This document shows, piece by piece, positions 4,552 to 27,541 of a stretch of 41,718 nt of DNA (the first letter of the stretch is position 1; each line of letters begins with the position of its first letter). Origin of the DNA: a virus; the IMG/VR virus record IMGVR_UViG_3300033052_000118, positions 1-41,718 of that record; one strand, 5' to 3'. Below the pieces are notes generated by a model. It saw nothing but the letters and a program-made list of their open reading frames with translations. It searched no databases and was not told where the DNA came from. The translations under genes and the position numbers were made by a program.

Positions 4552-4554
4552 TCT

Positions 4555-12148: not shown

Positions 12149-12196
12149 GTCTATGAACCTCCCTATGTATCGTGGCCGTACTGTCCGTGAGCCGGA

Positions 12197-12541
12197 TTAG
12201 CGAACGATGATGCCGACGGCAGCCAAGTCGGCTTTCGCCGGCGTATCGAGGCCGGTCAACTCGGCGCCGATGACCTCCGCCTGGCGAGCGATGACGACGG
12301 CGTCTTGATCCACAGCCAGATCCGGGGCGGCTGCGTACAGCACCGCAGCGGCAACTTCACTGCCATCGGCTGCCGCGTTGTTGTAAGCAACATACTTGCC
12401 GCTGGTTGTGATCTTGCCGAGAACCGTGCCAGGGACCAGAGCGCCCGCAGCCGCCGCGATGGTGACTTCTTCCCGGCTGATGGAGCCGTTGCCTTCCGAC
12501 AGCAGAAACTCGCCGGTGTGCTTGCCTTCGATGAGTGCCAT
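12197..12541 (-). CDS. Head decoration protein (lambda gpD-like)
   Basis: 114 residues, starting MALIEGKHTGEFLLSEGNGS and including an N-terminal arm ending SREEVTIAAAAGALVPGTVL. This arrangement is typical of the HDPD/gpD family, trimers that sit on the capsid threefold axes and stabilise the expanded head. The ATG lies 12 bases after the protease stop. The Ala-rich composition and lack of charged clusters suit a surface-bound stabiliser. Confidence 0.88.
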   Translation of the reverse strand: MALIEGKHTGEFLLSEGNGSISREEVTIAAAAGALVPGTVLGKITTSGKYVAYNNAAADGSEVAAAVLYAAAPDLAVDQDAVVIARQAEVIGAELTGLDTPAKADLAAVGIIVR

Positions 12542-12553
12542 TTCCTTAACTCC

Positions 12554-13576
12554 TTACCGAGAACGACGCGCAGCCCAAATATCCGCAGTCTTGACGGCTA
12601 CCGGCTGCGCGGGATTGGTTGCCGTGCTTTTACCCTTCGGCGCGGTGTCGATATGCAGCTGCTCGTCCGCTTCGGCGAGCATGGAGCACAGCTTTGCGCG
12701 AACGTCTGCCGTCGAAGTCCGCGCTTTGATGAACTGTGCAGCGGCATCGGGCTTCTTGGCGACGGTGCACAGCGCCTTGATTTCCCGGGCGTCGTTGATG
12801 GCCGCGGTGACGGCTTCGACGGTCCCGAGAGCTTGATCGAGTGCCCACACCGGAGCGAATTCCGCCAGGCCAGCCTGCTCAGCGAGGGCAGTCACCTGAT
12901 CGGCAAAGGTCGCGGCGGATTCCTGCGCCCCATACTTCGGCTCAGGCGCGGGATCTACCTTCGGTTCAGGCGTCTGCGCGGCCTTGAATACGGCCTTCAC
13001 GTGCTCCGGCAGGCGATCGAGTTCGAAGCTGGCCGACACCTTCAGCGCCGGCTCGACTTCGTCGGCAAACCCCAGGTCTTTTGCTTCGGCGGCGGTCAGG
13101 TAGCTTTCAGCGGCGAGCAGATCCTTGATCTCCTGCTCGGACTTTCCCGTGCGGGCCACGTAGGTGGCCACCAGGCTCGAACCGATCTTCTCGAGCGTGT
13201 CGGCAAGGTCGCGCAGCTCGTCGGCGTTGCCGTAAGCGAACGTCCACGGGTTATGCACCATCATGAACGTGTTCTCCGGCATGGTGATCTTGTCGCCGGC
13301 CATCGCAATGACGCTGGCGATGCTGGCCGCGATGCCGATCACGCGCACGTTGATGGTCTTGCCGGAGGCGCGCAGCGCGTTGTAGATGGCAAGGCCGTCG
13401 AACACGGAGCCGCCAGGCGAGTTGATCGACAGATTGATCGTCTTCGCCTCAACCTTGCGGAGGTCAGCGATGAAATCCTTCGCCGTCACGCCCCAGTAGC
13501 CGATCTCATCGAAGATCGACACCTCGGCGGCCTCGGCGCCATCGGCGGCATTCTGGAAGTTGTACCAATTACGCAT
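12554..13576 (-). CDS. ClpP-type head maturation protease with scaffold-like tail
   Basis: 340 residues. The first 190 form a ClpP/S49-like serine protease domain. SINSPGGSVFDGLAIYNAL (residues 50-68) is the oxyanion/strand region, S85 in GIAASIASVIAMAG is the likely nucleophile, and H108 in MMVHNPW is the catalytic His. The C-terminal 150 residues are Ala/Glu-rich and helical, like the internal scaffold regions of lambda C/Nu3-type proteins. It should process the portal, scaffold or itself during prohead maturation. It lies between the portal-side genes and gpD, as in lambda. Confidence 0.92.
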   Translation of the reverse strand: MRNWYNFQNAADGAEAAEVSIFDEIGYWGVTAKDFIADLRKVEAKTINLSINSPGGSVFDGLAIYNALRASGKTINVRVIGIAASIASVIAMAGDKITMPENTFMMVHNPWTFAYGNADELRDLADTLEKIGSSLVATYVARTGKSEQEIKDLLAAESYLTAAEAKDLGFADEVEPALKVSASFELDRLPEHVKAVFKAAQTPEPKVDPAPEPKYGAQESAATFADQVTALAEQAGLAEFAPVWALDQALGTVEAVTAAINDAREIKALCTVAKKPDAAAQFIKARTSTADVRAKLCSMLAEADEQLHIDTAPKGKSTATNPAQPVAVKTADIWAARRSR

Positions 13577-13645
13577 GGATCAGTCCTCTCAATGCTCAGG
13601 ATTGTGTGTGGCACGCTGGCTGCTCGCCTGCGTACAAATTTCGGG

Positions 13646-13942
13646 CTAGTTGAACGGGTTACCGATTCCCGACTTGAAACGCGCCCAGGCGTACATCACG
13701 AAGCTGCCAACGGTGCCAATCCACACGATTGGCCTGGCGATCTTGCCAAGCACCTCCAGCGTCTTGAATGCCCCCTTTGCCGCCGCGAGCACTTCGATCA
13801 GGTCGGAGGTGTTCTCTTCGATTCGCTTTGTGGTCGCCGTGTTCTCTGCCAGATTCGCCTCGACCCTCTCGACACGCTCCGCCAGGGCGGCGATTTCGCC
13901 GGTTCCGGGGTAGCGGACAGCATTTCCGTAGTCGTCTTGCAT
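13646..13942 (-). CDS. Coiled-coil membrane protein, XhlA-like
   Basis: 98 residues. A coiled coil (IAALAERVERVEANLAENTA, about residues 17-55) leads into a single hydrophobic segment (ARPIVWIGTVGSFVMYAWA, about 69-87) with a short basic tail. This layout resembles haemolysin XhlA / holin-accessory proteins, which help phage lysis or exclusion at the inner membrane. The position, between portal and protease, is odd for a lysis gene, so it may be a membrane-associated moron or infection-exclusion protein instead. It starts one base after the portal stop. Confidence 0.65.
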   Translation of the reverse strand: MQDDYGNAVRYPGTGEIAALAERVERVEANLAENTATTKRIEENTSDLIEVLAAAKGAFKTLEVLGKIARPIVWIGTVGSFVMYAWARFKSGIGNPFN

Positions 13943-13943
13943 C

Positions 13944-15470
13944 TCAGCCCCCTGGTTGCCGCGTCTTCTTTAGCGCGGGATCTTCGGTCGATGCAGTGCC
14001 ATCCGCCTCCTTGCCGGCCGGCGGAGTGAGGCCGAGGCTATCGGCCCGGGCCTTGTCGTCCGCGCGCTCCTGATCCACCTTCTCCGGATCGTCACCGCGC
14101 TCGGAAACGACGCTCGACCGACTCCGGAAGCCAGCGTTGACCTCGATCTGCTTGCCTTGAACGTCCTGCACGGGGTGGATGTACTGCCAGCCATGCGGTG
14201 CCCACTCGACGCGCTTCACTTCGTCGGCTTCCCCAACGGAGATGGCACCACTGAGAACACCGGCATCAACCCAGGCATCACGGATTGGCTGGCAGAGCAT
14301 CGGGATGACGATCTGCCACTGGCGCTGCTCGGCAAAGCGACGGAATTCATTGATGATCACGCGCAGCGTGCGGTCTGACACCTCCTTGATGTCGCCGCTG
14401 AACAGCTCGTATGGCAAACCCTGGCCAGCTGCTGTGCCCAAGTGCTGCGAGCGCATGAAGTCCGGGTAGGCCGTACCCGCATCCGGCGGGGCGGAGAACT
14501 TCACGTCCTGCCCGGGATCCAGTTCCTGCGACATGCCAGGCTCAAGCCCTGCCAGGGGCAGACCATCGTTACCCCAATCCACCGGCAGGTTGGTAAGGGG
14601 ATCGATGTCGCCGTCGACGCCCCCGGGCATGGTGCGCGTGATGAACACCGTGAAAAGGTTGGCCAGCTTCTGGCGCTCCAGCACGTTATCGTCGAAGTCC
14701 GCCACATTGCGCAGGCGCGCCAGGATCGGCGCAAGCGACGACACGCCCCGCAGCTGGCCCGGGCGTTTGGGTTCGAACATGTGCAGCACTTGCTCTGCCG
14801 GCACGCGAAGCAACCTGCTCGCGTCGATGGTGCCGGAGAACGGGCCGTCGCCCGGGTGATCGCGGTACATCCAGTAGGCGACGCGGCGCCCATATTTATT
14901 GCGCTCTATGCCTTGCCGGATGGTGTTGCCTGCAGGCATACCCGGCCAGTAGTCGGCGTCCAGCAGCGGCACGAAGTCCGCCTCTATAAGCTGGACCTGT
15001 AGGGGCACCGCCAGCGGTGCGTCGATCTGGCGGGGGCGCAAGCGCGCGAACACCTCCCCCGATTCAAGCCAGGAACGTACCCCAAGGGTCTGTAGACCAT
15101 AGAAATTGAGCACCCCATCCGCGTCGGCCTGCGACACCCAGGCATCCCACAGGTCATTCAGCTCCTGCTTCCGGGTCTTGGACTTGATACGGCGCAGGCG
15201 CGGCACAATGCCGATGCCAATGAGGTTTGTCGTCCAGTGCTGTGTGCTGGATTCGCCCGACCAGTCATTGCGACCGGCGTCGCGCGCGCGGTCCCGGATC
15301 TTCTGCAGGCCGGTGATCGCCCGGTTCGGCCCGGACGTGGGCGGATTCCAGCCGCGCATGCGTCGACCGGAGCCAGCGGCGTCATATCGCGCCTTGACTG
15401 CCAGCACGCCGCCACCGGCGCCTTGCGCGGCGGCCTGTGCCGCGGCCTTCCGCTTCCGAGCCGACGCCAT
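13944..15470 (-). CDS. Portal protein (lambda gpB family)
   Basis: 508 residues. The protein has the lambda portal family pattern: a basic N-terminus, RAITGLQKIRDRARDAGRND, WTTNLIGIGIVPRLR, and later RTMPGGVDGDIDPLTNLP and QGLPYELFSGDIKEVSDRT. Portal dodecamers form the DNA channel at one capsid vertex and dock the terminase. The Lys/Arg/Asp-rich C-terminus (EKVDQERADDKARADSLG) is likely flexible. Its ATG shares one base with the gpW-like stop. Confidence 0.92.
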   Translation of the reverse strand: MASARKRKAAAQAAAQGAGGGVLAVKARYDAAGSGRRMRGWNPPTSGPNRAITGLQKIRDRARDAGRNDWSGESSTQHWTTNLIGIGIVPRLRRIKSKTRKQELNDLWDAWVSQADADGVLNFYGLQTLGVRSWLESGEVFARLRPRQIDAPLAVPLQVQLIEADFVPLLDADYWPGMPAGNTIRQGIERNKYGRRVAYWMYRDHPGDGPFSGTIDASRLLRVPAEQVLHMFEPKRPGQLRGVSSLAPILARLRNVADFDDNVLERQKLANLFTVFITRTMPGGVDGDIDPLTNLPVDWGNDGLPLAGLEPGMSQELDPGQDVKFSAPPDAGTAYPDFMRSQHLGTAAGQGLPYELFSGDIKEVSDRTLRVIINEFRRFAEQRQWQIVIPMLCQPIRDAWVDAGVLSGAISVGEADEVKRVEWAPHGWQYIHPVQDVQGKQIEVNAGFRSRSSVVSERGDDPEKVDQERADDKARADSLGLTPPAGKEADGTASTEDPALKKTRQPGG

Positions 15471-15679
15471 CAGTAGCCCCGCCCGTTCTGGTACAGATAC
15501 ACGCGGCGCGGACGAGTCTTGCCCGACTGCTTCGCCAGCTGGGCTTCCAGGTCGGCGCGCGCCTTGATGAGGTCATCGACCGAGCGATACGTGATGCTCT
15601 GCCCGCCGAGCGTGACTTGCCGCTCGCCGGATGCGATAGCCTCGTTCAGCGCGTCGATGTCCGCTTGGGTGACTGCCAT
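15470..15679 (-). CDS. Head-tail joining protein (gpW-like)
   Basis: I use the internal ATG at 15679 (MAVTQADIDALNEAIASGER), giving 69 residues, the normal gpW length of about 68. A longer frame to 15844 would overlap the terminase gene. The text VTLGGQSITYRSVDDLIKAR and RADLEAQLAKQSG is typical of the gpW family, a two-helix/beta hairpin protein that binds the portal after packaging so that the tail can attach. It sits between large terminase and portal as in lambda. Confidence 0.87.
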   Translation of the reverse strand: MAVTQADIDALNEAIASGERQVTLGGQSITYRSVDDLIKARADLEAQLAKQSGKTRPRRVYLYQNGRGY

Positions 15680-15761
15680 GTGGATTTGCGTGGGCCGGTT
15701 TCGTTCACGCAGATCATCACGGTTCAAGTCCGACAGTGCCTGCGGGCGGATTTCGGGCGAG

Positions 15762-17924
15762 TCAGCCCAGGTATGACGACCGGGCGACGCGGCGCCTGCG
15801 AACTGCAGGCACGGCCGGCGCTGCTTCGGGCTGCGGACGCTCAACAGCCACGCTCGCCTTCATCTCCCGGCGATCCTCGACCGCGATCAGTTCAGAGTTC
15901 TCCACCAGAGGCTTTGCCCAAGTGGGGGCACGGTCCCAGTTCTTGATCTTGTCAGCCCCCAGGCGCAGGCGGGCGGCGATAGCGTAGACGCACAGGTCAA
16001 ACGCCTCATTGCGCTTTCGCACCTGCTTCCAAGTGCCACTCGGGTCACGGACTTCGGCGGTGAGTTCGTCGAAGAACGCCATGGGCAGCCAGCCGCTTGG
16101 ATTCAGGGGGCTTTTCGGCTTCGAGAAGTGGTAGTAACCTGGCCCGGGCGACGGTCGCCGCAGCCCCGCGGCGACCTCATCCTTCAGCAAATTTGGGTTG
16201 AAGACATAGAGCGGGATGTCGCCCTTCTCGCGCCCGTTGCGGTTACCGACCCACGATTCCTTGATCCGCGGCGCCGTCTTTGTCGAGGCGCCTTTCACCA
16301 GCATCACCCGGCTGTGCAAACCCTCGCGCCGCAGGCGCCGGTACCACGCATACGCCTTGTCGGTGACACCGTCCTCGCCGCCCGAATCTACGGCCACCAT
16401 CTTGACCCGCAGTTCCAGCCCATCCATGGGCGTGCGATAGGTGGCGCGTACCACGCGCTCGGTCAGCACGTCCCAGTCCTCGGCGTAACTGGCCGGATCG
16501 ATTGGCGCCATGCCGTCCATGCCTTCGCGCGCCGACTCGGTGATGTTGTAGCGGTCGACCAGCCATTGCTCGTTGTGGGGCCCGTGCGCGTGCACCTGCA
16601 CGACGAAGCGCGCGTTGGTTCCGCCCTGTACGTCAACCTGAGCCGTCAGGAACCGTGTTTGCTCCGGCGCGATGTAACGCACCAGGCCCTGCTCCGCGCG
16701 GTCAGCCGGGCCAACCGACGTTCGACCAGCTTCCGCTAGGTGCCGGCTCATGTAGGGCATGCCCTGATCGACGTTGGTCGTGTTTTTGAGCGGCTCTTCG
16801 TCGCCGCTGAGCTCGTACTGCCGCAGCGCGGTGAAATAGCGCAGCAGCAGGGACTTCCACGACTGGAAGGCGGCCGCCACACCGCCCAGCCAGTAACCCG
16901 CGACTGGCGCCGCGACCGCCTCGCCGGCCAACTCGTCGTCCACTGTGAGGTGCTGTCCCTCAGCCAGCCAGCGGCCGCCCCGGTTCAGCGCCGGCTTCGC
17001 CTTTGGCAGGTGGACGGCGCCGCAATGCGGGCAGATGATGCGGTTGTACTGGTCTGCGAGGGCGTTGATGTCACCCTCGCGCACGAGCTGGCCGAGTTCA
17101 TCATCCGGCGGCAAGTTGAACAGCGCCAGGCCCGGCGCGGCTTCGAACCACTCGCGGCAGTCGGGACACTTCCAGTACCAGCGGCGGCGGTCAGAGCCGT
17201 TGTAGAGGCCGAGGATGCCGTTCGTCGGCGGTGCCTCGTGTGGCGTGGCCGGGCGCCAGTTCGGGTCTTCAAGGTCGCGGCCAGGGGACGACTCCGCCAG
17301 GGCCATGCCGCGGCTCATGAACGTGGTGGTGCGTTTGAGGCCAAGCGGGAACGGCGCACCTTCGCCGCCAATGTCGTCCGGCATTCGATCGAGATCGGTG
17401 AATGCCACGTAGCGATAGGTGGATCCGGACAGGTTCGAAACGGTAGGCCACGCAATGCGCAGCCACATGCCGTGCCGGAACTGCTTGTCATGCACGGTGT
17501 CGTCCTGACTCGCCGCCGACTTCATTGCGGCGAGGTTTGGCGAGTGCCGCAGGGCGCGGTCGATGTCCGTCTTCGAGAACTCACGCGCCTTGTCCTGCGA
17601 CATTTGCACGAACAGCATGTCGCCCGGGTCATTGACAACGGTGTGCGACATCCATCCCAGAAGCAGCGATGCGGTCTTGCCGGTACGCGCCGGCCCGACC
17701 ACCACCACCGCCTCGTGGTGCCGGCTGGCCAGCATGTCCGTTGGCTCCACCATGTACGGCGTCTCGTCTGGTGACCAGGGTGTCGCCGGTCCACCGGTCT
17801 GCTTGATGATGAGGTTCTGCGCCGCGCCCTCGCTCACCGACATGCGCTTGGGCGGGCGAAACGCCTCGTATGGGCTCAGCACATCGCCGAGTGCGACCTC
17901 GTAGTGAGCGGCTTCCTCAGACAT
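15762..17924 (-). CDS. Terminase large subunit (GpA family)
   Basis: 720 residues from the ATG at 17924 (MSEEAAHYEVALGDVLSPYE); a longer frame to 18065 is overlap with the small subunit. The Walker A-like motif GPARTGKT lies at 77-84 and an acidic Walker B-like segment YRYVAFTDLD at 171-180. A four-Cys zinc-binding pair follows, CPDC (253-256) and CPHC (298-301), as seen in the GpA family. The nuclease half includes KMVAVDSGGEDGVTDKAYAW. The enzyme translocates DNA into proheads and cuts at cos. GpA-type terminases normally act at cohesive ends, so cos packaging is predicted. Confidence 0.95.
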   Translation of the reverse strand: MSEEAAHYEVALGDVLSPYEAFRPPKRMSVSEGAAQNLIIKQTGGPATPWSPDETPYMVEPTDMLASRHHEAVVVVGPARTGKTASLLLGWMSHTVVNDPGDMLFVQMSQDKAREFSKTDIDRALRHSPNLAAMKSAASQDDTVHDKQFRHGMWLRIAWPTVSNLSGSTYRYVAFTDLDRMPDDIGGEGAPFPLGLKRTTTFMSRGMALAESSPGRDLEDPNWRPATPHEAPPTNGILGLYNGSDRRRWYWKCPDCREWFEAAPGLALFNLPPDDELGQLVREGDINALADQYNRIICPHCGAVHLPKAKPALNRGGRWLAEGQHLTVDDELAGEAVAAPVAGYWLGGVAAAFQSWKSLLLRYFTALRQYELSGDEEPLKNTTNVDQGMPYMSRHLAEAGRTSVGPADRAEQGLVRYIAPEQTRFLTAQVDVQGGTNARFVVQVHAHGPHNEQWLVDRYNITESAREGMDGMAPIDPASYAEDWDVLTERVVRATYRTPMDGLELRVKMVAVDSGGEDGVTDKAYAWYRRLRREGLHSRVMLVKGASTKTAPRIKESWVGNRNGREKGDIPLYVFNPNLLKDEVAAGLRRPSPGPGYYHFSKPKSPLNPSGWLPMAFFDELTAEVRDPSGTWKQVRKRNEAFDLCVYAIAARLRLGADKIKNWDRAPTWAKPLVENSELIAVEDRREMKASVAVERPQPEAAPAVPAVRRRRVARSSYLG

Positions 17925-18306
17925 TCCCGCCCCCCATTTTCTCGAACACATCCGCCAGTTCGTCCAAGGATTCATCGACCTGCCGGCCGATTTCCTCGGC
18001 AATGTCAGGCGCCAGCGCCAGGCGCCGCTCGAGGTGGTCAGGCAGGGAGCGCAAGGTTTGGGCAATCGTGGAGTAGGCCGTGGCGGTCGCCTGGACTACT
18101 GCCGCCCGCGAAACGTATTCGCCGCTCTTGATCTTGAACTCGAGCTCGTTCAGGTCAGCCTTGGCCCGCTCATTGCGCGCCCGGGCCTCATCGAAGTCCT
18201 CGACCGCCACGGGCTTCACGTATTCCTTCGGCTTCCGGCCGGCGCCTGAGCGTGCACCGCCGTGGCCGTTGCCCTTCGAGGTGCGGGCCGGGGTCGTTTG
18301 GCTCAT
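17917..18306 (-). CDS. Terminase small subunit, oligomerisation/GpA-binding part
   Basis: 129 residues from the ATG at 18306, which has AGGGGG 9 bases upstream; a TTG at 18315 is an in-frame alternative. A basic Gly-rich N-terminus (GGARSGAGRKPKEYVK) precedes a long helical region (ARNERAKADLNELEFKIKSG, TLRSLPDHLERRLALAPDIA). This helical part resembles the C-terminal portion of Nu1-type small terminases. It overlaps the large subunit gene by 8 bases. The DNA-binding half seems to be encoded by the preceding 79-aa gene. Confidence 0.8.
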   Translation of the reverse strand: MSQTTPARTSKGNGHGGARSGAGRKPKEYVKPVAVEDFDEARARNERAKADLNELEFKIKSGEYVSRAAVVQATATAYSTIAQTLRSLPDHLERRLALAPDIAEEIGRQVDESLDELADVFEKMGGGNV

Positions 18307-18311: not shown

Positions 18312-18551
18312 TCAACCCCCTGCCGTGCGCTCGTCGGACGCCGGGGCCACGGTCGGCTTCAACCAGGCATGAAGTTCCGAGGCGCGCACGAATAGCAGCC
18401 CGCGCTCGCCGAGCTTTACCAGCTCAAGCGGCGCGTCACCCCGCCTGATTGCGGATTCCAACAGATCGACGGAGATGCCCACGAGGGCAGCCGCAGCGGC
18501 GAGCCGGTAGAGGCCTGGCGACGCCGCGGGCGCAACTTGATTTCTTTCCAT
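18312..18551 (-). CDS. Winged-HTH protein, likely DNA-binding half of the small terminase
   Basis: 79 residues: SPGLYRLAAAAALVGISVDL forms an excisionase/MerR-like helix-turn-helix, followed by a wing (LVKLGERGLLFVRASELHAW). Lambda Nu1 has such a winged HTH at its N-terminus that reads cos. Here it is separate and ends just before the start of the helical small-terminase gene. I see no good Shine-Dalgarno before the ATG at 18551, so an alternative start or low expression is possible. A separate regulator role is the main alternative. Confidence 0.65.
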   Translation of the reverse strand: MERNQVAPAASPGLYRLAAAAALVGISVDLLESAIRRGDAPLELVKLGERGLLFVRASELHAWLKPTVAPASDERTAGG

Positions 18552-18977
18552 GCCGAAAATGGTGCGTTTTCGGTGCTGTCGCGTCCTGCGGATGGATTTC
18601 GGGGTTCTGGCTGTGGTGTCGGGGCTGGCGGGGATGTTTCAGGGATCAATGCCCCGTAATCAAGTTTTGAAATCCGAAAAACTCCCGAAGGCCGGGCCTC
18701 TTCGCGCCCGCACGTACTAGGATTCCCCCGGGGCCCCCGCCAAGCCAGCGATGCGCGTGATGCAAGGCTGTCGGCCGGATCGCCCATTGCGTGGCCATCC
18801 CGCCAATGCTCAGCCGCAAGCCAATGGCCACACCAGACCTGGTGCCGGCGCGCTGGCTTTGAGCCTGTGGCAGGCAGACTGTGGCAATGGGGGTGGATGC
18901 GGAAGCGTATGAGGTTGACAGTGCAGCCCCTCATGGCTGTACTGATATGGTGAAGCGCCCTGCTGTCCTACCGCGGG
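18552..18977. other. 426-base non-coding region, candidate cos and late promoter
   Basis: No reading frame here has a plausible start, ribosome site and protein-like composition; a 172-aa minus frame starting at 18934 overlaps the HTH gene and looks like chance. It lies between the Mor-like activator and the terminase genes, where lambdoid phages keep cos and, in Mor-regulated phages, an activated promoter. Visible structure: an AT-rich inverted repeat AGTTTT-N9-AAAACT at 18664-18684, and a self-complementary GC block CCCCCGGGGCCCCCG near 18725-18739, a possible cosN-like element. Neither is proven. Confidence 0.5.
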
Positions 18978-19427
18978 CTATGCCAGGCAGCCCAAGTCAA
19001 GAGGCATTTGGGCGGGGTTGCCTTCCCGCACCTTCTTCGGGGCACGGCGCATGATGAGCGGGATCAGGTCCATGCGCTCGATCTTGGTGCGGATCTGCTG
19101 CACCCGGCGCTCAGTCAAGCCAGTGATCTGAGCGATCTCCTTGGAGCCCTTGCCCTTGGCGATCAACTGGGCGATGAGGCGGTTCCGGCGGTCGATCTCT
19201 TCTAGATGGCCTTCGGGGATGGCCAGCGTCTCGGAGCCGTACGCGGCGACCAGGCGCCGGTAGGCCGACAGCCCGATCAGGCGGGACACTGGATGGTTTT
19301 CATCTGCCGTGGCGGGGACGTACAGATTGGCGCCACCGAACCAAGCCACCAGCAGCGAGGTCGCCGTGTAGCCGATCTCAGCGCTCACATCCTCCAGCAC
19401 TCCGTTTGCCTTGGTTCTGTCCATCAT
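18978..19427 (-). CDS. Mor-type transcriptional activator, probable late-gene activator
   Basis: 149 residues. The N-terminal half ([40 protein letters not shown]) matches the Mor/C activator dimerisation pattern. The C-terminal half has a helix-turn-helix, GKGSKEIAQITGLTERRVQQ (about residues 92-111). Mor and C of phage Mu activate middle and late promoters. This gene ends the early operon and precedes the non-coding region in front of the terminase genes, so a role as late switch replacing lambda Q is a reasonable inference. MMDRTK gives two adjacent ATG codons; I use the first. Confidence 0.83.
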   Translation of the reverse strand: MMDRTKANGVLEDVSAEIGYTATSLLVAWFGGANLYVPATADENHPVSRLIGLSAYRRLVAAYGSETLAIPEGHLEEIDRRNRLIAQLIAKGKGSKEIAQITGLTERRVQQIRTKIERMDLIPLIMRRAPKKVREGNPAQMPLDLGCLA

Positions 19428-19435: not shown

Positions 19436-19852
19436 TCAGTCAAAAACAACCCCGAAGGTGGAAGCGGCGTGCGCCTCGACCTGCCTCATGTATTCCGCCA
19501 TGGCGCCGACAGTGATCTCGCCGCGGGCGATCGACGGCTCGACCAGCGCTAACCGGCCGTCCGACAGGCGATGTTCCTTCGGTGGCAGGAACCGCTCCTT
19601 CATGTGCCTGTGCCAGGTGGCCTTGCTGAACCGGCAGCCGGCGACCACGGCCTGCTCGGCAATCAGCTCGATCACCGCAGCCCAGTAGAAGCGGACCTGC
19701 TCCTCTGTGCGGTCAGCACTGTCGTCTACCAGGATCACCCTGAGGGGTCGACCGTCGCGTGCCATGGGTGGGGCTGCCGCGCGGACGGTGGACACGACTT
19801 CGGCCCAGTCCGCACGGCCCCTCAACGTGAATTCCCGGTAGACAGAGGTCAC
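19436..19852 (-). CDS. ninB: NinB/Orf-like recombination mediator
   Basis: 138 residues. The C-terminal part, FYWAAVIELIAEQAVVAGCR then ATWHRHMKERFLPPK and EYMRQVEAHAASTFGVVF, matches the NinB family. Lambda NinB (Orf) binds single-stranded DNA and can replace host RecFOR in loading recombination proteins. It lies 8 bases before the Mor-like gene and 4 bases after the HTH gene, so it is part of a tight early operon equivalent to the lambda nin region. Confidence 0.85.
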   Translation of the reverse strand: MTSVYREFTLRGRADWAEVVSTVRAAAPPMARDGRPLRVILVDDSADRTEEQVRFYWAAVIELIAEQAVVAGCRFSKATWHRHMKERFLPPKEHRLSDGRLALVEPSIARGEITVGAMAEYMRQVEAHAASTFGVVFD

Positions 19853-19856: not shown

Positions 19857-20393
19857 TTAGGCTGCCGTCGGGCCGCCGCGGGTGACGTGGCTCGCGCCGG
19901 CGCTAATGCCGATGGCGGTCAGCGGCGCAGTCATCGGCTCGCCGCTCCAGGCGATATAGCCGTTCACGCCGAGCGAGATGTCCTTGGTGTCGTCGTCGCC
20001 GAGCAGGCTCAGTGCTGCGTCAGCGTTGGCCAGCACGGCGGCACGATCGCGCTCATGGTTCGGGAACTGGGGCAGCACCTTCGCGTCGAACTCGGCTTCG
20101 ATGGCGGCGCGAGCTTCGGCCTTGGTGGCGGCTTTGACTTGGAGCGAGTAGCTCATGGGACTTTCCTTTACACAGTGGTCGCGCTTCGGGATGGGCGCGT
20201 GACCTAGGCCCGGTTCAATTTGTTTCGTTGCTGCGTCGGCTCGTGCCTTGGTCAGCGTGCGCGTCTTTGCCACGGCGCACGCGATCTGCTGGCAGCGCAT
20301 CCGGCTGATTCCGTAAGCGGCGGCCGCGACCGCCAAGGATTTGCCTTGGATGACCAGCATGTGGTGGATGGCGCGGTTTCGATCTGCTTTCAT
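19857..20393 (-). CDS. HTH segment fused in frame to a small phage protein
   Basis: 178-residue frame. The ATG at 20393 overlaps the stop of a 40-aa gene (ATGA), supporting translation from there. Residues 8-42 look like a helix-turn-helix (GKSLAVAAAAYGISRMRCQQ). From residue 80 (MSYSLQVKAATKAEARAAIE) the protein changes to a compact domain with DDDTKDISLGVNGYIAW, which resembles a stand-alone small phage protein of about 95-100 aa. That part has its own strong ribosome site at 20156. Either the two parts are fused, or two products come from one frame. Confidence 0.65.
   Translation of the reverse strand: MKADRNRAIHHMLVIQGKSLAVAAAAYGISRMRCQQIACAVAKTRTLTKARADAATKQIEPGLGHAPIPKRDHCVKESPMSYSLQVKAATKAEARAAIEAEFDAKVLPQFPNHERDRAAVLANADAALSLLGDDDTKDISLGVNGYIAWSGEPMTAPLTAIGISAGASHVTRGGPTAA
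20154..20170 (-). promoter_or_regulatory. Internal ribosome-binding site and alternative start
   Basis: On the minus strand AAAGGAAAG lies about 5 bases before the ATG at 20156, much better than the site before the upstream in-frame ATG at 20393. Translation from here would yield a 99-aa protein beginning MSYSLQVKA. This decides between a fused 178-aa product and a separate small one; both may be made. Confidence 0.55.
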
Positions 20394-20512
20394 CTTTGCC
20401 GCAGGTAGACATCGATCGGACCGAGCTCGAGTACGGCGCGACCGCGAGGCGCGCGCCAGTATCCAAAACCCCAGCGAAGCGGGTTGAACCCGCGGAATTT
20501 GAAGCGCAGCAT
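20390..20512 (-). CDS. 40-residue basic, aromatic small protein
   Basis: A 40-codon frame starting MLRFKFRGFNPLRWGFGYWR. Its ATG shares a base with the stop of the upstream gene (TGATG), GGGAGG lies 7 bases upstream, and its stop overlaps the next start (ATGA). Such double coupling in an otherwise gap-free operon is good evidence that it is real. It is rich in Arg, Phe, Trp and Gly, with no long hydrophobic stretch, and may bind nucleic acid or act as a small inhibitor. No family is recognised. Confidence 0.65.
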   Translation of the reverse strand: MLRFKFRGFNPLRWGFGYWRAPRGRAVLELGPIDVYLRQR

Positions 20513-21042
20513 CAGGCGGCCTCCCGGTCTTCGTCGAGGCCAGCGGCCGGCATGCGACGCGTACCCTCCTTCCTCAGCCGGACGACGTTGCCGGACCGGA
20601 TGCGCCGGTCGGCCTCGAAGATCGCAGCCGCATGCTGGCGCTTCGTGACGGAGGCCAGCAGATCCTCGTACAGCGCCATGGCCTCGTTGAGGCGCGGCAG
20701 ATCGCCAACACCCAGCCGCAGTGCACCCATCGCCTTGCAGCGCTCACCAACGTTGATCATGGCGTTCTGCGCGGCGTAGATCACCGCCATTCCGACTTCG
20801 CGGTTGTTGGCCTTCTCGCACAGCACCTGCGATGCATTCAGGGCATTGACGATCGTGTGCCAGTCGTCGCGCGTGGCCTGGCCGCGCGCCAGCGCCTGCA
20901 CTGACCAGTGGGCCGCGCCGAGGATGGTTTCGCGGTCGCTCTGAGACAGCGGCTGGTCACTTTCGAACAGCAGCGCGGTGATGTTCGTGCGCACGTCGCG
21001 CGGGCGGTAGGCCTTGTTGCGCCTCTTCTTGCTCGTGGCCAT
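20512..21042 (-). CDS. Conserved-type early phage protein, unknown function
   Basis: 176 residues from the ATG at 21042 (MATSKKRRNKAYRPRDVRTN); a longer frame upstream only overlaps the DUF1064 gene. The N-terminus is strongly basic, and the rest is mostly helical (QATRDDWHTIVNALNASQVL, NEAMALYEDLLASVTKRQHA). No membrane segment or catalytic motif is seen. The basic N-terminus and its place among nuclease-like genes suggest DNA-related work, but I do not recognise the family. Confidence 0.75.
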   Translation of the reverse strand: MATSKKRRNKAYRPRDVRTNITALLFESDQPLSQSDRETILGAAHWSVQALARGQATRDDWHTIVNALNASQVLCEKANNREVGMAVIYAAQNAMINVGERCKAMGALRLGVGDLPRLNEAMALYEDLLASVTKRQHAAAIFEADRRIRSGNVVRLRKEGTRRMPAAGLDEDREAA

Positions 21043-21491
21043 CAGAACTCCTCCCTCACCCATCCGCCGCCCTTCTTCATGGGCAGCTTTGTCGCCTTCA
21101 CCACGCGGAAGTACGGCAGCACCTCCGCGCATAACTTGATCTTCATCTGGCCCTTGTCCGTGGTGTAGCCGCCCTTCGTCTCGTGGATGGCCAGCCGCAT
21201 GTCGTCGTGCAGCACCAGGAAGTCCACCTCGTAGAAGGTGTTGTCGGCCAGGCGCACACGCATCGGGTGAAACTTCCAGTCGATGACCAAACCCTGGCGC
21301 ATCTCTTCCTCGAGCAGGACCGAGTAGGCGCGCTCGGTCTTGTTCATCTGGTCCTTGGGCAGGCGGCCCAGCGCGTGGAAGCGCGCCATCGGATCGACAT
21401 TGCCGGCGGTCGCGGCCGGCACAGCCTTCTCTGGCTGGCGCGCCTGGTGGGCGGCAAGCTGCTCGGGCGTCCAACGAAGCATCTTGCTCAT
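21042..21491 (-). CDS. DUF1064-family nuclease-fold protein
   Basis: 149 residues. The C-terminal 100 match DUF1064: E53 in NKTERAYSVLLEEE, D90 in FYEVDFLVLHDD, and E104-x-K106 in AIHETKGGY form a PD-(D/E)xK-like active site pattern. MKIKLCAEVLPYFRVVKATK completes the domain. Phage members sit in replication/recombination clusters and are suspected endonucleases, perhaps for branched DNA. The start overlaps the MmcB-like stop by 4 bases. Confidence 0.8.
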   Translation of the reverse strand: MSKMLRWTPEQLAAHQARQPEKAVPAATAGNVDPMARFHALGRLPKDQMNKTERAYSVLLEEEMRQGLVIDWKFHPMRVRLADNTFYEVDFLVLHDDMRLAIHETKGGYTTDKGQMKIKLCAEVLPYFRVVKATKLPMKKGGGWVREEF

Positions 21492-22384
21492 GCCGCTTCC
21501 TTATCGCCTTGGGCCGCGGCGATGACCGCCTCCGCGTCGCGGAACTGCTTGAAGCCGTATTGCATGCTTCGGACGATTGAGCGCAGTTCCTTGACCGTCG
21601 TGTCAGCCTGCGCGAGCGTGATCATGTCCCGCAGGCGGCTGCCCATCTCGTAGACCTTCGCGGCATCCGGCTCCATGCCGACCACGTCGGCCAGCGCTAC
21701 CAGAAGCGCCAAGCACTCGCGGTCGACTTCCGCGCGGGCCTTCTTGCGCCGCTCATCAATCCGCTGCAGCTCGCTCTCGAGCATGGCTGATTGCGTGGCA
21801 ATGCGGTGTTTCAGGCCAGCCAAATGGTGGGTCGTCTGGTCCCGGTGGTCCCGGATCGCGGCGGCCACTACCTCGCCGAATTCGCCCCGTATTTTTTGCA
21901 GAGCCAAGTACTCATTGAGCGAACGGCATGACCGATCCTTCTGCAATTCCTGGCGCTCGATGTCCCGGCGGGAACCATCGATCAGCAACTTCATCCACGC
22001 ATCGCGCGGCAGGCTTTCGCACTTCGACAGCGCCGGCTTCTTCAGCGAGCGCCAGCCATCCGGGCCGCGGACCATCAACCCGGCGCCGGCCGGAATTTCT
22101 TCTTTCTTCAGCAGGCCGGCCGGGCACGCGAACACCACGCCGGCGGCGAACTTCAGATAGTCCGTGTATTTGCCCTTGGTCACGTCGGCGCGGAAGTCCG
22201 ACATCGACACCTTGCACTCATAGGCGATGGGCTGGAACCGGCTGTAGCTCTTCGGCAGCGCGTAGACATCCGGTCGGCTGCTGCCCGCCGGGCCCAACTG
22301 CATATCAGTCCAGACCATGCGGTCGGTATTGCCACGCAGATGCATCGCCAGGTCCTCGGCCAGGCCGTCGTGCGTCCACTTCAT
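21488..22384 (-). CDS. MmcB-like PD-(D/E)xK protein with helical C-terminal extension
   Basis: 298 residues from the ATG at 22384, with GGGGAGAAAG just upstream. The N-terminal 130 residues resemble MmcB-family DNA repair proteins: RPDVYALPKSYSRFQPIAYE then CKVSMSDFRAD, giving a D39...E56-x-K58 nuclease-like signature and TDYLKFAAGVVFACPAGLL. Residues 150-298 are a helical extension (LESELQRIDERRKKARAEVD) not typical of the short bacterial family. Role in phage DNA processing or host DNA degradation is inferred. Confidence 0.75.
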   Translation of the reverse strand: MKWTHDGLAEDLAMHLRGNTDRMVWTDMQLGPAGSSRPDVYALPKSYSRFQPIAYECKVSMSDFRADVTKGKYTDYLKFAAGVVFACPAGLLKKEEIPAGAGLMVRGPDGWRSLKKPALSKCESLPRDAWMKLLIDGSRRDIERQELQKDRSCRSLNEYLALQKIRGEFGEVVAAAIRDHRDQTTHHLAGLKHRIATQSAMLESELQRIDERRKKARAEVDRECLALLVALADVVGMEPDAAKVYEMGSRLRDMITLAQADTTVKELRSIVRSMQYGFKQFRDAEAVIAAAQGDKEAA

Positions 22385-22623
22385 GACTTTCTCCCCTTGA
22401 TCCACTCGCGGCGCTGGGCCGCCTGCTCGCTCGGTACCGGCGAATGCATGTCGCAATGCCGTTCTGTTTCTGCTGCCTGCCAGCGCTGTGTCAGAGATTC
22501 CTTGAGGCACCGGCCCATGCCGACCCGTGCATGTGCAATGTCGCTCGCGCGCAAGAGTTCCTGTTCCTCTCCGGTGCGCGGCTTCAGGGTGAAGTGCTCG
22601 CAGGTAATGCAATTGACTGTCAT
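22381..22623 (-). CDS. Small Cys-rich, possible zinc-binding protein
   Basis: 80 residues from the ATG at 22623 (MTVNCITCEHFTLKP). Four Cys and two His residues are arranged as CITC, then C in MGRCLKES and C/H in RHCDMH, compatible with one zinc site. Both ends overlap neighbours by 4 bases. Similar small Cys proteins are common in phage replication operons, but I cannot name the family. Confidence 0.7.
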   Translation of the reverse strand: MTVNCITCEHFTLKPRTGEEQELLRASDIAHARVGMGRCLKESLTQRWQAAETERHCDMHSPVPSEQAAQRREWIKGRKS

Positions 22624-23540
22624 GCGGCCTCCTGGTTGGGGGGATAAAAGGCGTCCATGATTCGAGCGTGCATTGCTTCGTCGCGCTCGTGCTCGCGCAG
22701 CAATTGCTGGCGCCAAGGGCCCTCCCCCGCAGCCGCGAACACGCGGACCTTGAACCAAAGCCAGATTTCCCCTCGGTCCTCGCGGTGCACGAGGCCAAGT
22801 TCGGCAGCCTTGGCCTTGATACCCTCCTTCGTCGCCGACCAGTCGGCCGCCCCGGCTTTTACGCCGTTGGCCGCGCCGGCCGGCATCGGACCCTCACGGC
22901 GCACCCAGTTCCGCCAGGTGGCTTCCCAGTCGGCTTTACGGGCGTCAGCGCCGCCCTTGGCGTGCCAGTGGTCGCGGAACACGTCGGCAACATGGCGGGT
23001 ATGCTCGACCGTCCAGCTGGGTTGCTCCTTCAGCGCCCAGTCGCCCCAGCCCTTCGGCAATACCCACTCTTTCGGGAGACGAGTCGCCTTTCCGGTGGCG
23101 GCGGGTGGCGAAGCCGACCCGCTCCGACCCTTGTGAACCTTTGAGGCTTCTGCTTCTGAGTCTGCTTCTGCATCTGCTTCTGTATCTGGTGCCGTTGCTG
23201 CAACGTTGCATCCCTGTTGCGCTTCCTTCTTCTTCGCTTCTCGATGCTTGCGGGACCGCTCTGTGCTTGAGTCCGAAACGAATTGACGCTTGTCCCAGTT
23301 GCAGATGTTCCACTCGGCGTCGACAAAGCCTTTCCGCATGAAAAGCGCCTTGGTTTCCGCCAAGTCTTCGTCGCTGAGACGGAGGGCGAACGCCAGTTCA
23401 TCTTCTTGCAACGTTGCAAGAGCGTTGCTGCAACGGAGGCAGAACAGCATCATCAGTCGGCGCTGCATTGCCTCCGACATGCTCTGCACCTTCGCATCGG
23501 TTGCGAACTCGGAATACATCCGGAACCACGGGTTCGACAT
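22620..23540 (-). CDS. Phage replication protein, O-like initiator / DnaD-type
   Basis: 306 residues from the ATG at 23540 (MSNPWFRMYSEFATDAKVQS). The N-terminal 110 residues form a winged-helix domain of the phage replisome-organiser type, ending WNICNWDKRQFVSDSSTERS plus RKHREAKKKE. A low-complexity acidic linker (TEADAEADSEAEA) follows, then a C-terminal domain with WGDWALKEQPSWTVEHTRHV and FRDHWHAKGGADARKADWEA, typical of phage O-like proteins. It should bind the origin and load helicase. No P/DnaC-like ATPase follows, so the host loader may be used directly. Confidence 0.8.
   Translation of the reverse strand: MSNPWFRMYSEFATDAKVQSMSEAMQRRLMMLFCLRCSNALATLQEDELAFALRLSDEDLAETKALFMRKGFVDAEWNICNWDKRQFVSDSSTERSRKHREAKKKEAQQGCNVAATAPDTEADAEADSEAEASKVHKGRSGSASPPAATGKATRLPKEWVLPKGWGDWALKEQPSWTVEHTRHVADVFRDHWHAKGGADARKADWEATWRNWVRREGPMPAGAANGVKAGAADWSATKEGIKAKAAELGLVHREDRGEIWLWFKVRVFAAAGEGPWRQQLLREHERDEAMHARIMDAFYPPNQEAA
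23145..23189 (-). repeat. Degenerate hexamer repeat in the replication gene linker
   Basis: The + strand reads as repeated TCTGCTTCTG-type hexamers between 23145 and 23189. On the coding strand this yields the acidic linker TEADAEADSEAEA between the two domains of the O-like protein. Such repeats can expand or contract by slippage and change linker length. Confidence 0.6.
23194..23434. other. Candidate replication origin with palindromic repeats
   Basis: Inside the O-like gene two clusters share the same elements. At 23194-23210 GTTGCTGCAAC joins TGCAACGTTGCA. At 23406-23434 the 14-bp palindrome TTGCAACGTTGCAA is followed, after four bases, by GTTGCTGCAAC. The lambda origin likewise lies within gene O as iterons bound by O. 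These repeats are therefore candidate binding sites for the encoded initiator. Coding needs could also produce one copy, but not easily both clusters. Confidence 0.45.
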
Positions 23541-24004
23541 CAGGCATCCTCCGCGGCCGCCACGGCGCAGCCACCCTGCCCGGCCAGCTTGAGCGCGCGC
23601 ACGGGCACCCATCGGCGGTATGCATCGTCCCAGTAGGTGCGGCGCTCTTCCTTCGTCAGCCAGTTGCCTTGGTCAATGGCGTGGTGGCACCAGCCGCAGC
23701 CCGGTACCGTCTTCTCGTCGTCCGCCTTGATACCCATGCCCTTGCCGTGGGCCTGTTGGTTCGAGTGGCAATCCACGACCGAATCCTTGTCATGCGACGG
23801 CGCGCCAGGGATCAGCAGGTAGCAGGGCTCACCACGGCAGGCCAGCGCGTACCGCCGCTCGGCCATCGGCCGGCGCTTGGGGACCTTCTTCTTGAAGGGG
23901 CTGGGCACCAAGCCAGCCGTCCGCTTCAGCCAGGCGCTGGACCGCAGCGGGGTGCGACGCTGTAGCAGAGCACCTCGCTTCATTGGTTTCGACCTGCTCA
24001 GCAC
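23540..24004 (-). CDS. YbcO-like (DUF1364) nuclease
   Basis: 154 residues from a GTG at 24004 preceded by a perfect GGAGG 7 bases upstream; an ATG at 23983 is the alternative. The core matches DUF1364/YbcO: ACRGEPCYLLIPGAPSHDKD, VVDCHSNQQAHGKGMGIKAD and PGCGWCHHAIDQGNW, a Cys/His metal-binding nuclease signature. DLP12 YbcO was reported as a DNase. Lambdoid phages carry it in the nin region. The basic N-terminal 50 residues are an extension. It overlaps the methyltransferase by 7 bases. Confidence 0.85.
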   Translation of the reverse strand: MLSRSKPMKRGALLQRRTPLRSSAWLKRTAGLVPSPFKKKVPKRRPMAERRYALACRGEPCYLLIPGAPSHDKDSVVDCHSNQQAHGKGMGIKADDEKTVPGCGWCHHAIDQGNWLTKEERRTYWDDAYRRWVPVRALKLAGQGGCAVAAAEDA

Positions 24005-25143
24005 GGCTCGACCTCCAGCATCAGGCCCGGCTGGCGAGTCCGTTCAGCCTGCAGGGCGATGTAGCCGGGGTTGAGTTCGGCGCCAAGCCACCGGCGGCCG
24101 AGGCGCTGGGCGACGCTGGCCACCGTGCCCGAACCCATGAACGGGTCGAACACAATGTCGCCTGCTCGAGATCCCGCCAGGATGCACGGTTCCACCAGGG
24201 TTTCCGGGAAGGTGGCGAAGTGCGCACCGGCGTATGGCTGCGTGGCGATCGTCCAGACGCTGCGCTTGTTTCGCATCTCGGTTATTGCGCGGAAGGCCTC
24301 CCGGCCGGCTAGGTCGTTCGTCTTTCCCGCGAAGTCGCCGCGCTTGACGCTCTCGCGCACCTTCTGCGCATAGGCTTGGAGGCCTGCCTTCGTGCGGTGA
24401 AGTTCATCGCCCGCTTCGTAGGCGGCCTGGCCCTTCGCCGGGTTCACGTTGCCCGGAACACGAATGCGCCCGCGGTCCCTAAACTCCGCGTCGAAGCCAT
24501 GGCCGAACCCAACGCCGGTCGGCGTAGGCCCAAACGTGGCCGGCTCCTTGATGGCGTCCGCGTCGAAGAAATACCGCTCACTGCGGGTCATCAGAAATAG
24601 ATACTCATGCGCCTTGGTGCAGCGGTCGCGCACGCTCTCCGGCATCGGATTCGGCTTGTGCCAGACGATGTCCTGACGCAACCACCAGCCGGCATCTTGC
24701 AGCGCAAATGCGAGGCGCCACGGCTGTCCAACCAGGTCTTTCGGCTTCAGCCCTTCGACGCGCACGTCGCTGCGCGGGATCGGTGTGTCGTCTCGCCGGC
24801 GGCTGGCCGTCATCCCGGCCGGAATCCCCTTGGACGCGGTGTTGCCTCTGTTGCTCGAGCTGCTGTCGCCTGCGGCTGCGCGGCTACCGGCATAGCTGTC
24901 GCCCATGTTCAGCCACAGCGTGCCGTCCTCGTTCAGCAACTGGCGGCAGAGGCCGAAGACCTCCACCATGTTGTCCAAGAACTGGCGCAGTGTCGGTTCC
25001 TGTCCGATCTGCCCAGCATGGCCATAGTCGCGCAAGCCCCAGTACGGCGGGCTGGTCACGATGCACTGCACGCGCACACCAGCGGCGATCAGGTCGCGCA
25101 TGACGTCGCGGCAGTCGCCTTGGTAGCAGTGGTTAGTCAGCAT
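23998..25143 (-). CDS. DNA amino-methyltransferase (N4-cytosine/N6-adenine, beta class)
   Basis: 381 residues. Catalytic motif IV, TSPPYWGLRDYG (30-41), is near the N-terminus and the SAM-binding motif FDPFMGSGTV (about 332-341) near the C-terminus, the beta-class order. SPPY is most often seen in N4-cytosine enzymes but also in N6-adenine enzymes. The middle (DLVGQPWRLAFALQDAGWWL, DIVWHKPNPMPESVRDR) is typical. No restriction partner is present, so this is an orphan enzyme that probably protects phage DNA or alters regulation. Confidence 0.93.
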   Translation of the reverse strand: MLTNHCYQGDCRDVMRDLIAAGVRVQCIVTSPPYWGLRDYGHAGQIGQEPTLRQFLDNMVEVFGLCRQLLNEDGTLWLNMGDSYAGSRAAAGDSSSSNRGNTASKGIPAGMTASRRRDDTPIPRSDVRVEGLKPKDLVGQPWRLAFALQDAGWWLRQDIVWHKPNPMPESVRDRCTKAHEYLFLMTRSERYFFDADAIKEPATFGPTPTGVGFGHGFDAEFRDRGRIRVPGNVNPAKGQAAYEAGDELHRTKAGLQAYAQKVRESVKRGDFAGKTNDLAGREAFRAITEMRNKRSVWTIATQPYAGAHFATFPETLVEPCILAGSRAGDIVFDPFMGSGTVASVAQRLGRRWLGAELNPGYIALQAERTRQPGLMLEVEPC

Positions 25144-25178
25144 GCTAGGATGCCTCCCACCACCAAAAGGAGACCGCC

Positions 25179-25439
25179 ATGGAATATCCCATCAACCTGC
25201 GTGTAGATGACGACCGTACGGGTGTTGCGTTCGCCCTGAACGTTTCTGGGTATCTGCAGGAGTTTCTGGTAAGCCGTGAGGCATTGGATGATCTTGTTGG
25301 CTTGCCAGCGCAGGCATCGAAAGACGACATGAAGGCCGCCTTTGGAAAAGCGGCGCAGCACATTTGCAACGTGGCAGTGAAGATGCGGGGAGTCCCAGGC
25401 AACAACACGGTGCTGATAGCTTCGAGCGATCTGAAATAG
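25179..25439 (+). CDS. Lone plus-strand small protein, DUF1488-like
   Basis: 86 residues (MEYPINLRVDDDRTGVAFAL) with AAGGAG about 6 bases before the ATG. It is encoded opposite to the early operon that surrounds it, 35 bases from the methyltransferase start and 5 bases from the C5-methyltransferase stop. The pattern SREALDDLVGLPAQ, then a helix (FGKAAQHICNVAVKMR) and ending VLIASSDLK recalls DUF1488 proteins. It must have its own promoter in or before the 35-base gap, and its mRNA is antisense to the early operon. Confidence 0.72.
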   Translation: MEYPINLRVDDDRTGVAFALNVSGYLQEFLVSREALDDLVGLPAQASKDDMKAAFGKAAQHICNVAVKMRGVPGNNTVLIASSDLK

Positions 25440-25444
25440 ACCCT

Positions 25445-26365
25445 TCACGCTACCTCCTTGATCGCATCGATGATGTCGCGCGCCACCGGCGGGCAGACTG
25501 CGTTGCCTAGCAGGTGCACGGCGGTTCGGTGCTGCGCTGGAAGCTGGTAGTCGGCCGGGAACCCCATCGCCGCACGGCACTCGTTGGCGCTCAGCATGCG
25601 CATCTGATCGCCATTCACCAACGCCCAGCGATCGCGCGTGGTGATGGTGCCGAGCGGGCGAGCCAAGCTGCGACCCGTGGTGCCCGATCCGCTGCCGTAG
25701 TACGGCATGACGAAGCGGTCACCGTATGTCCGGCGCCCTTGTGCGATGCGCGCCAGCGTGGCGGCAGCGCGGCCGGGCTTCTCGATAGGCGACCATTTGC
25801 CGGCCGAGAAGTCGATGATGTCGGCGGCCGGCACGTGCTCGCGCTGAGGCAGTTGAAGCAACAACGGCCGACTGCTGCGGCTCAGCACGAGGAAGAGCCG
25901 TTCGCGGTGTTGCGGCACCCCGTGGTCGGCTGCATCCACCAGGTGCGGTGCGACTTGGTAGCCCAGAGCCTGGACCGCGAGACGCCACGCTGGGTACAGC
26001 GCCCATTCCACGAATTCCCTGACGTTCTCGACCACGCCAAACGCCGGCCGGTGGTACTCCAGTGCGGACACCACAGCCCACGCCGTCGAGCGACTTGCAT
26101 CGTGCTGCGGGTTGTTCGCAGCTTTGCCGCGCGCAGGCGAATGACCTTGGCAACAAGGGGATGCCAACAGCAGGTCGTGAGCCGGCACCTCCGACCAGTC
26201 GGCCTGGTGGAGGTCTTGGCAAACATGGGTGGTGCGGGGATGGTTGGCGGCATGGGTCTGGACGGCTACCCAGGAATGATTGCCTGCCCACTTCACCCGG
26301 ACGCCAGCCATCTCGGCGCCTTCTGTGAAACCGCCGCCACCGGCGAACAGGTCGACTGCGATCAT
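25445..26365 (-). CDS. C5-cytosine DNA methyltransferase
   Basis: 306 residues. Motif I DLFAGGGGFTEG (5-16), motif IV with catalytic Cys in SPCCQGHS (69-76), motif VI ENV (113-115), motif VIII QHRER (152-156) and motif X GNAVCPPVA near the C-terminus are all present. Motif IV has PCC where most enzymes have PPCQ, with C71 after Pro as nucleophile. The target recognition region is short. AGGAGAGG precedes the ATG. No cognate restriction enzyme is seen, so an anti-restriction or regulatory role is likely. Confidence 0.94.
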   Translation of the reverse strand: MIAVDLFAGGGGFTEGAEMAGVRVKWAGNHSWVAVQTHAANHPRTTHVCQDLHQADWSEVPAHDLLLASPCCQGHSPARGKAANNPQHDASRSTAWAVVSALEYHRPAFGVVENVREFVEWALYPAWRLAVQALGYQVAPHLVDAADHGVPQHRERLFLVLSRSSRPLLLQLPQREHVPAADIIDFSAGKWSPIEKPGRAAATLARIAQGRRTYGDRFVMPYYGSGSGTTGRSLARPLGTITTRDRWALVNGDQMRMLSANECRAAMGFPADYQLPAQHRTAVHLLGNAVCPPVARDIIDAIKEVA

Positions 26366-26379
26366 GCTGCGGCCTCTCC

Positions 26380-26715
26380 TTACACCGCTGCGGCCGTGGC
26401 CGGCGCAGTACGCGAGGGTTCGTCAGCCAGCTTCAACAGTTCCTGCGGCTTGCCGGTGTGGAGATCCTTGATGCTGCCGCACACGACCAGGCGCTTGGCG
26501 TCGAGCAACTCGCGCACGCGGCCGCAGACGCTGGACAGCTTCATGTTCGTGCGACGCGAGATCTCTTCGCGCGTCAGCTTCACGCCCTCGCCTTCGAAGG
26601 CATTGACTACCATCTGCTGGCTCGCGCAGAGATCCTTGACCGTCAATGCGTGATACGAGTCGAACTGCGTGCCCGAGACACGGCGGCCCGAGCGGGTGCT
26701 GTAAATTTGTTCCAT
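26380..26715 (-). CDS. Winged-helix DNA-binding protein
   Basis: 111 residues. A winged HTH is visible in about 35-85: KLTREEISRRTNMKLSSVCG as the helix-turn-helix, then VRELLDAKRLVVCGSIKD as the wing. The Ala/Thr-rich tail (TAPATAAAV) is likely disordered. It lies third in the right early operon, 14 bases before the C5-methyltransferase. It may regulate the methyltransferase genes or replication; no named family is certain. Confidence 0.78.
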   Translation of the reverse strand: MEQIYSTRSGRRVSGTQFDSYHALTVKDLCASQQMVVNAFEGEGVKLTREEISRRTNMKLSSVCGRVRELLDAKRLVVCGSIKDLHTGKPQELLKLADEPSRTAPATAAAV

Positions 26716-26777
26716 GTTTCTCCCCGGCTTTCCGGTAAATGACGTAGGTACGCGGCGCCTGTATCGGCGCGCTGCGG

Positions 26778-27143: not shown

Positions 27144-27162
27144 CGTTCGCTCCCCCACACAA

Positions 27163-27190
27163 GTTCCACTTGTTCTTGGTGTTGTTCCAC
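27163..27190. promoter_or_regulatory. Pair of 7-bp direct repeats before the CII-position gene
   Basis: GTTCCAC occurs at 27163-27169 and again at 27184-27190, 21 bases apart (two helical turns), between the terminator and the CII-position gene. CII-type activators bind direct repeats on one DNA face, and this is a candidate operator for that or a similar protein. No clear -10 and -35 pair accompanies it. Confidence 0.35.
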
Positions 27191-27205
27191 GTGCCAAATC
27201 GACAC

Positions 27206-27229: not shown

Positions 27230-27265
27230 CATTTGCTGAGACGCCACGAAGGCGCCCCAATGAAC

Positions 27266-27535: not shown

Positions 27536-27541
27536 GGCCAT

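Follow-up and report, generated by a model that had tools for sequence, protein, structure and literature searches.

A Mor/C-family activator in the position of lambda Q is a probable late-gene switch in a temperate siphophage of the lambda type

The last early gene of a lambda-type temperate siphophage encodes a protein of the Mor/C family and lies immediately before the late operon. Family and position suggest, with a probability of about 0.7, that this Mor-type activator turns on the late genes in the place of Q. In lambda, Q-type antitermination is the textbook mechanism of late control. Here, a Mor/C-type activator would do the job of Q by another mechanism. The DNA examined (the window) is a virus record of 41,718 bases and, judged from its sequence, an integrated prophage.

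The gene (18978..19427, minus strand; mor below) starts with ATG, codes for 149 amino acids and has a coding-like codon usage (score 51). An earlier note had claimed a Mor/C-like activator at this place and proposed a profile search, and the search bore it out. Pfam Mor (PF08765) matched the protein with E 2.1e-5 and 24.9 bits, which is exactly the curated cut-off of 24.9, and PHROG_836, 'late transcriptional activator', matched residues 8-118 with 8.1e-19. When the record was searched in six frames with PF08765, no match at E <= 0.001 was returned, i.e. the mor frame was missed; therefore, the Pfam evidence from the single sequence is borderline. When 16 Mor-like sequences were aligned, PF08765 matched 15 of them (best 9.6e-10) and PHROG_836 all 16. 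An AlphaFold model based on 14 aligned sequences (mean pLDDT 73.1) predicted an alpha/beta N-terminal part with the succession H-H-E-H-H-E ahead of a C-terminal helix-turn-helix (HTH). Residues 69-131 of the model resembled HTH domains (best Z 7.7, rmsd 2.7, 55 aligned residues, a range which the tool calls common). The listed fold matches were general HTH domains only, Mu Mor not being among them, and a sequence search of solved structures likewise returned HTH parts only. GerE, HTH_23 and KorA matched partially at residues 75-116, each below its own cut-off. The HTH is kept in the Mor proteins of the closest relatives, which are 63-95% identical. By profile matches we assign the protein to the Mor/C family, and profiles and model agree on a predicted C-terminal HTH.

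The gene order places mor at the junction of early and late genes. The early operon (19857..27541, minus strand) begins with a Cro-like gene (27266-27541, minus strand) and continues with methyltransferase, replication and recombination genes in the direction of mor. Upstream of mor and on the same strand is a Holliday-junction-resolvase-like gene near a gene for a NinB/Orf-like recombination mediator (19436..19852, minus strand; PHROG_72, E 3.7e-13); the latter directly precedes mor, and its start is uncertain, 19738 being preferred by the codon model. A CI-like repressor (27516..28415; PHROG_4, E 1.8e-37) and a tyrosine integrase (38829..39929; PHROG_1, E 5.4e-44) are encoded on the plus strand, and Erf/exonuclease recombination genes are located on this CI/integrase side of the genome. 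An ATPase-like gene (40537-41718) follows beyond the integrase; at this edge of the prophage it is probably part of the host DNA or has a role in defence. After mor, the same strand carries a 79-aa HTH ORF, the small (terS) and large (terL) terminase genes and the portal, protease, head and tail genes. The rest of the late operon (1..15844, minus strand) comprises head-tail adaptor, portal, ClpP-type protease, decoration, major head, tail terminator, major tail, tape measure and further tail genes and is cut by the window edge. Thus, mor is the last gene of the leftward early operon in the succession NinB - Mor - cos - terminase; it had been rightly described as the final early gene, just ahead of the late operon, with the NinB-like and replication genes upstream, and terminase, head and tail genes downstream, on one strand.

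The assignment to the lambda-type temperate siphophages is based on a GpA-type terminase, a portal, a ClpP-type protease, an integrase, a CI/Cro-like region and a cos site, the last by comparison only. A lambda type is seen in the temperate layout and in the genes for terminase, portal, protease and head, the head genes being of the lambda/HK97 type. To this extent the earlier assertion of lambda-type morphogenesis genes stood. It did not extend to a large tail-region protein (898-4551), which matched PHROGs of unknown function only; therefore, the lambda-type character is demonstrated for a part, not every one, of the morphogenesis genes. The lambda Q gene is situated after the nin genes and before cos and the late genes, a position which matches that of mor; with Mor in the place of Q the gene order of the window is that of lambda. 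In lambda, lysis genes are located between Q and cos, whereas the window has none there. Lambda Q modifies RNA polymerase as an antiterminator, and its target is a promoter plus a terminator; the Mor-like protein is proposed to be a DNA-binding activator. We looked for a Q-like gene; none of the early-operon proteins scanned, where a very diverged Q might still be hidden, matched a Q-like PHROG. Mu transposition genes (transposase, GemA) were absent among the proteins scanned and a tyrosine integrase was present instead. A C-like second activator was not detected in the window.

Between mor and the terminase genes we observed a strongly conserved block around GTGCGGGCGCGAAGAG (18696-18713), when the DNA preceding terS was aligned. 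The alignment comprised the window, three Cupriavidus prophages, R1 (genome G003), R2 (G001, C. yeoncheonensis) and R3 (G002, C. necator A5-1), and a further relative, the viral contig L003; a sixth sequence, the same prophage as R1 (in G028), was left out. Alignments of the five kin and seven phages and the likeness to phages phiE125 and phi644-2 lead us to read the block 18655..18740 (minus strand, ends approximate) as cos, the packaging site. The cos-like block is also present in the viral contigs L025 and L084 and in Curvibacter phage PCA1. For phi644-2 and phiE125, a ten-base 3' extension, GCGGGCGAAG, is given in the available text of the published work (PMC2920897). It resembles the window core GCGGGCGCGAAG, which has two extra bases and is taken as cos by comparison. 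A distant BLAST search of the window cos region against phages yielded no homologs, and the reading as cos rests on the kin, PCA1, L025, L084 and the published phiE125/phi644-2 sequence. Three CCCCGAAA-like repeats (18568..18624, minus strand), recognized in the alignment of the kin, would be cosB-like. The first gene after cos (18312..18551, minus strand) encodes the 79-aa, HTH_17-like protein. It is followed by terS (17917..18306, minus strand; 129 aa), the match of which to DUF1441 and PHROG_57 is confined to their C-terminal half, and by terL of the GpA family (15762..17924, minus strand). Apparently, the small terminase is split (17917-18551) into a 129-aa C-terminal-half ORF and the preceding HTH ORF, and the latter is possibly the separate N-terminal half. 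The 79-aa ORF is kept in R1, R2, R3 and L003; in PCA1 and L025 a terminase gene directly follows the cos-like block.

The order mor - cos - terS - terL was identical in the window, R1, R2, R3 and L003 despite differing DNA between mor and cos. In R1, the same-strand late operon has a holin and a lysozyme at its far end, both named by eye and not by family search. In the genus, a Mor relative was detected in 4 of 60 genomes at E <= 1e-8, three of which harbor R1, R2 and R3; in the family, 11 of 398 genomes had one, and in the order 15 of 399 (E <= 1e-12 with a wider profile). Searching 44 sequences, several of them too short to tell, we found 11 distinct loci (16 sequences before repeats were removed) with a GpA-type terL downstream of mor on its strand. 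The terS type of the window occurred in eight viral contigs; mor was upstream in all five which reach about 4 kb upstream (two of these near-identical), and the other three end too soon to show it. An Alcaligenaceae prophage, L015, carries mor between the large terminase and portal genes, i.e. with terL upstream of mor; hence the position of mor before terL is not universal.

The predicted late promoter would likely be located in the 264 bp between mor and the cos-like block (18714..18977, minus strand). The corresponding DNA is 727 bp long in R1, 942 bp in L003, 2,657 bp in R3 and 5,218 bp in R2. It is non-homologous among the kin and carries various genes on either strand; a late promoter, if present in this interval, therefore differs from phage to phage. 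This interval is an insertion hot spot in R2, R3 and L003: R2 has acquired methyltransferase-like, FemAB-like and Crp-like proteins (named by eye), R3 a 399-aa ORF and L003 a 111-aa ORF. The earlier note had placed the late promoter in 18552-18977. Nearly half of this segment is occupied by the cos-like packaging site, and sequence scans disclosed neither a conserved operator nor a single sigma-70-like site. The one terminator-like site of the junction from mor to terS is weak and is situated inside cos.

How does a Mor protein recognize its target? According to the available text of two reports, Mu Mor binds to a pair of inverted repeats of 5 bp, with 6 bp between them and their centre at -43.5, at the promoter Pm, where it substitutes for the -35 contact (PMC4390567; PMC4287176). 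The window interval contains one perfect 5-6-5 dyad with a geometry like that of the Mu Mor site (18919..18944, unstranded). With its outer arms it is an imperfect dyad (9/10 pairs) and a hypothetical operator. Its score was reached in 6 of 300 dinucleotide shuffles at spacer 6; when all spacers of 0 to 12 were allowed, 40 of the 300 reached it. The dyad has no counterpart in the kin, including R1, the Mor of which is 95% identical, and no -10-like hexamer was present at the Mu spacing from it.

Other candidates were examined and discarded. All perfect 5-6-5 dyads from mor to terS were listed in the five kin and none was common to them. A 14-bp word ahead of cos (18952..18965, minus strand) is common to the window and R2 (13/14) and exceeds the best of 20 shuffles by one base; R2 and L003 have in common an 18-bp word upstream of cos (17/18) which exceeds any of 20 shuffles. 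Neither word extends to all five kin, and both were rejected as operators. A half-site CCCTGC/GCAGGG, promising by eye, was restricted to some loci, was not clearly enriched and was dropped. A-tract arrays, very clear in a sister clade, were rejected as Mor sites since they are absent from the window clade. In summary, sequence comparison established no Mor operator in the window or its kin. A bolder proposition is that a single conserved activator starts late transcription across cos at promoters that are unrelated in sequence. The target promoter would then reside in a freely exchanged mor-cos cassette, each relative would have imported its own operator-promoter, and the dyad at 18919-18944 would be the operator of the window. 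We consider this speculative and rather unlikely.

From family and position we infer binding, promoter, activation and timing as follows. Mor would be the product that the early, PR-like operon supplies last. Bound to a site between mor and terS, it would bring the sigma-70 RNA polymerase of the host to a weak promoter that lacks a -35 element. Transcription would then cross cos, joined after circularisation or in concatemers, and proceed to terS, terL and the one-strand late operon, the end of which in the close relative R1 is formed by holin and lysozyme. A junction with only a weak terminator-like and no promoter-like site would suit an activator-dependent promoter better than a target of lambda Q. 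The proposal of the earlier note that activation replaces antitermination thus gains from the Mor family membership, the Q position, the lack of a Q among the proteins scanned and an order kept in four kin; a Mor-dependent promoter in 18552-18977 found no support in the scans. Against a late switch operated by Mor also count the dyad, which is within reach of chance, the lack of a promoter or operator traceable by conservation, and R2, in which 5.2 kb with genes on both strands separate mor from cos. In L084 merely about 50 bp lie between mor and the cos-like block, which leaves little room for a promoter.

Mor might act mainly on a middle-type operon, i.e. on genes inserted between mor and cos or on a further regulator, and the late genes might be expressed by other means or by read-through from the early operon. 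This is how Mu is organized, in which Mor drives the middle and C the late genes, as far as the available text describes it (PMC4287176). R2, R3 and L003 do have other genes between mor and cos, and no strong terminator is present from mor to terS in the window. However, each relative has its own inserted genes, some of which run in the opposite direction, and a C-like second activator was not detected; Mu has two successive activators, in the window one was seen. In the window, the stretch from mor to cos contains no gene that scores well as coding, so that nothing but the late operon follows mor. Taken together, we consider a middle-operon function improbable.

Q proteins are very diverse; therefore, a missing match to Q is weak evidence, and several early genes lack an assigned function. 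Antitermination at a promoter plus terminator between mor and terS could be due to a diverged Q-like protein or an RNA element, with Mor as an accessory regulator. Yet the early proteins scanned gave no Q-like PHROG, and the junction possesses neither a strong intrinsic terminator nor a sigma-70-like promoter, which makes such a mechanism very unlikely. The borderline Pfam score and the rarity of Mor in the host group could also indicate a decayed or repurposed gene, e.g. an autoregulatory one, without effect on the late genes. Yet the frame is intact with coding-like codon usage, the HTH is conserved in the kin, and the linkage to terS was retained while the adjoining DNA turned over. We consider decay or repurposing very unlikely as well. 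A late switch operated by Mor in the place of Q is the reading we prefer.

The window protein shares with Mu Mor/C (PF08765) the profile family and the C-terminal HTH. Like these it would be a small, early-made activator ahead of its presumed target genes. Unlike Mu, the window genome has a tyrosine integrase, a cos-like site and a GpA terminase, and no transposition gene was seen. A tblastn search resulted in 13 phage records with a Mor-like match, ten of which were opened. B23 and TJ1 contained transposition genes; ACF1 and EBPR siphovirus 4 had an ambiguous layout. In the non-transposing phages QH16, HXX_Dennis, Suso, StM171, Mano and PPpW-3 a Mor-like gene ends the early genes as in the window (Suso is known from the tblastn match table only). 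In most of them it is annotated as Mor-like or late activator; the Mano annotation explicitly notes a similarity to the Mu Mor structure, and the QH16 paper, in its available text, names a Mor-like activator (PMC12286969). In five of the ten opened records, QH16, HXX_Dennis, PPpW-3, Mano and StM171, lysis genes directly follow mor, whereas in the window clade cos and the terminase do. The annotated late transcriptional activator of phage PCA1 is 37.5% identical to the window protein over residues 8-127. Like the window, PCA1 has a cos-like block and terS-terL further on after mor; unlike the window, it has a large primase gene ahead of mor, a run of leftward genes of about 4 kb that separates mor from cos, and an A-tract array at the 3' end of mor.

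Mor-like phages of a sister clade carry a directional G/C-AAAA array at the mor 3' end and in the adjoining downstream DNA, with the motif every 11-16 bp, typically 12-14. On the mor strand the arrays are located at L020:7452-7541, L021:7410-7498, L025:526-581, L005:6387-6443 and L024:7373-7418; weaker ones were seen in L004, L011, L022 and L023. A strict scan detected arrays in 6 of 44 sequences (two near-identical), on the mor strand only and around mor only, and none in shuffles. Up to 120 bp from the mor stop the density on the mor strand was 12.5-29.2 per kb in all 8 loci measured; elsewhere in the locus it was 0.9-4.5. Because the array continues through coding and non-coding DNA alike, it looks like a DNA or RNA element. 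In L004, L005, L011 and L020-L024, non-coding gaps of 132-630 bp separate the large primase gene from mor and contain, by eye, repeated short words on both strands; such a gap is possibly a replication origin.

The arrangement as such is already known since QH16, HXX_Dennis, Suso and Mano are annotated with Mor-like activators. Among the papers listed by the literature searches, none reported experiments on late control by a Mor-type protein in a lambda-like phage; at present, therefore, the mechanism seems to be supported by annotation only. The window would provide a compact example of late-gene control by activation in an otherwise lambda-built phage, and the cos block together with the variable mor-cos interval may mark where such regulatory swaps can occur.
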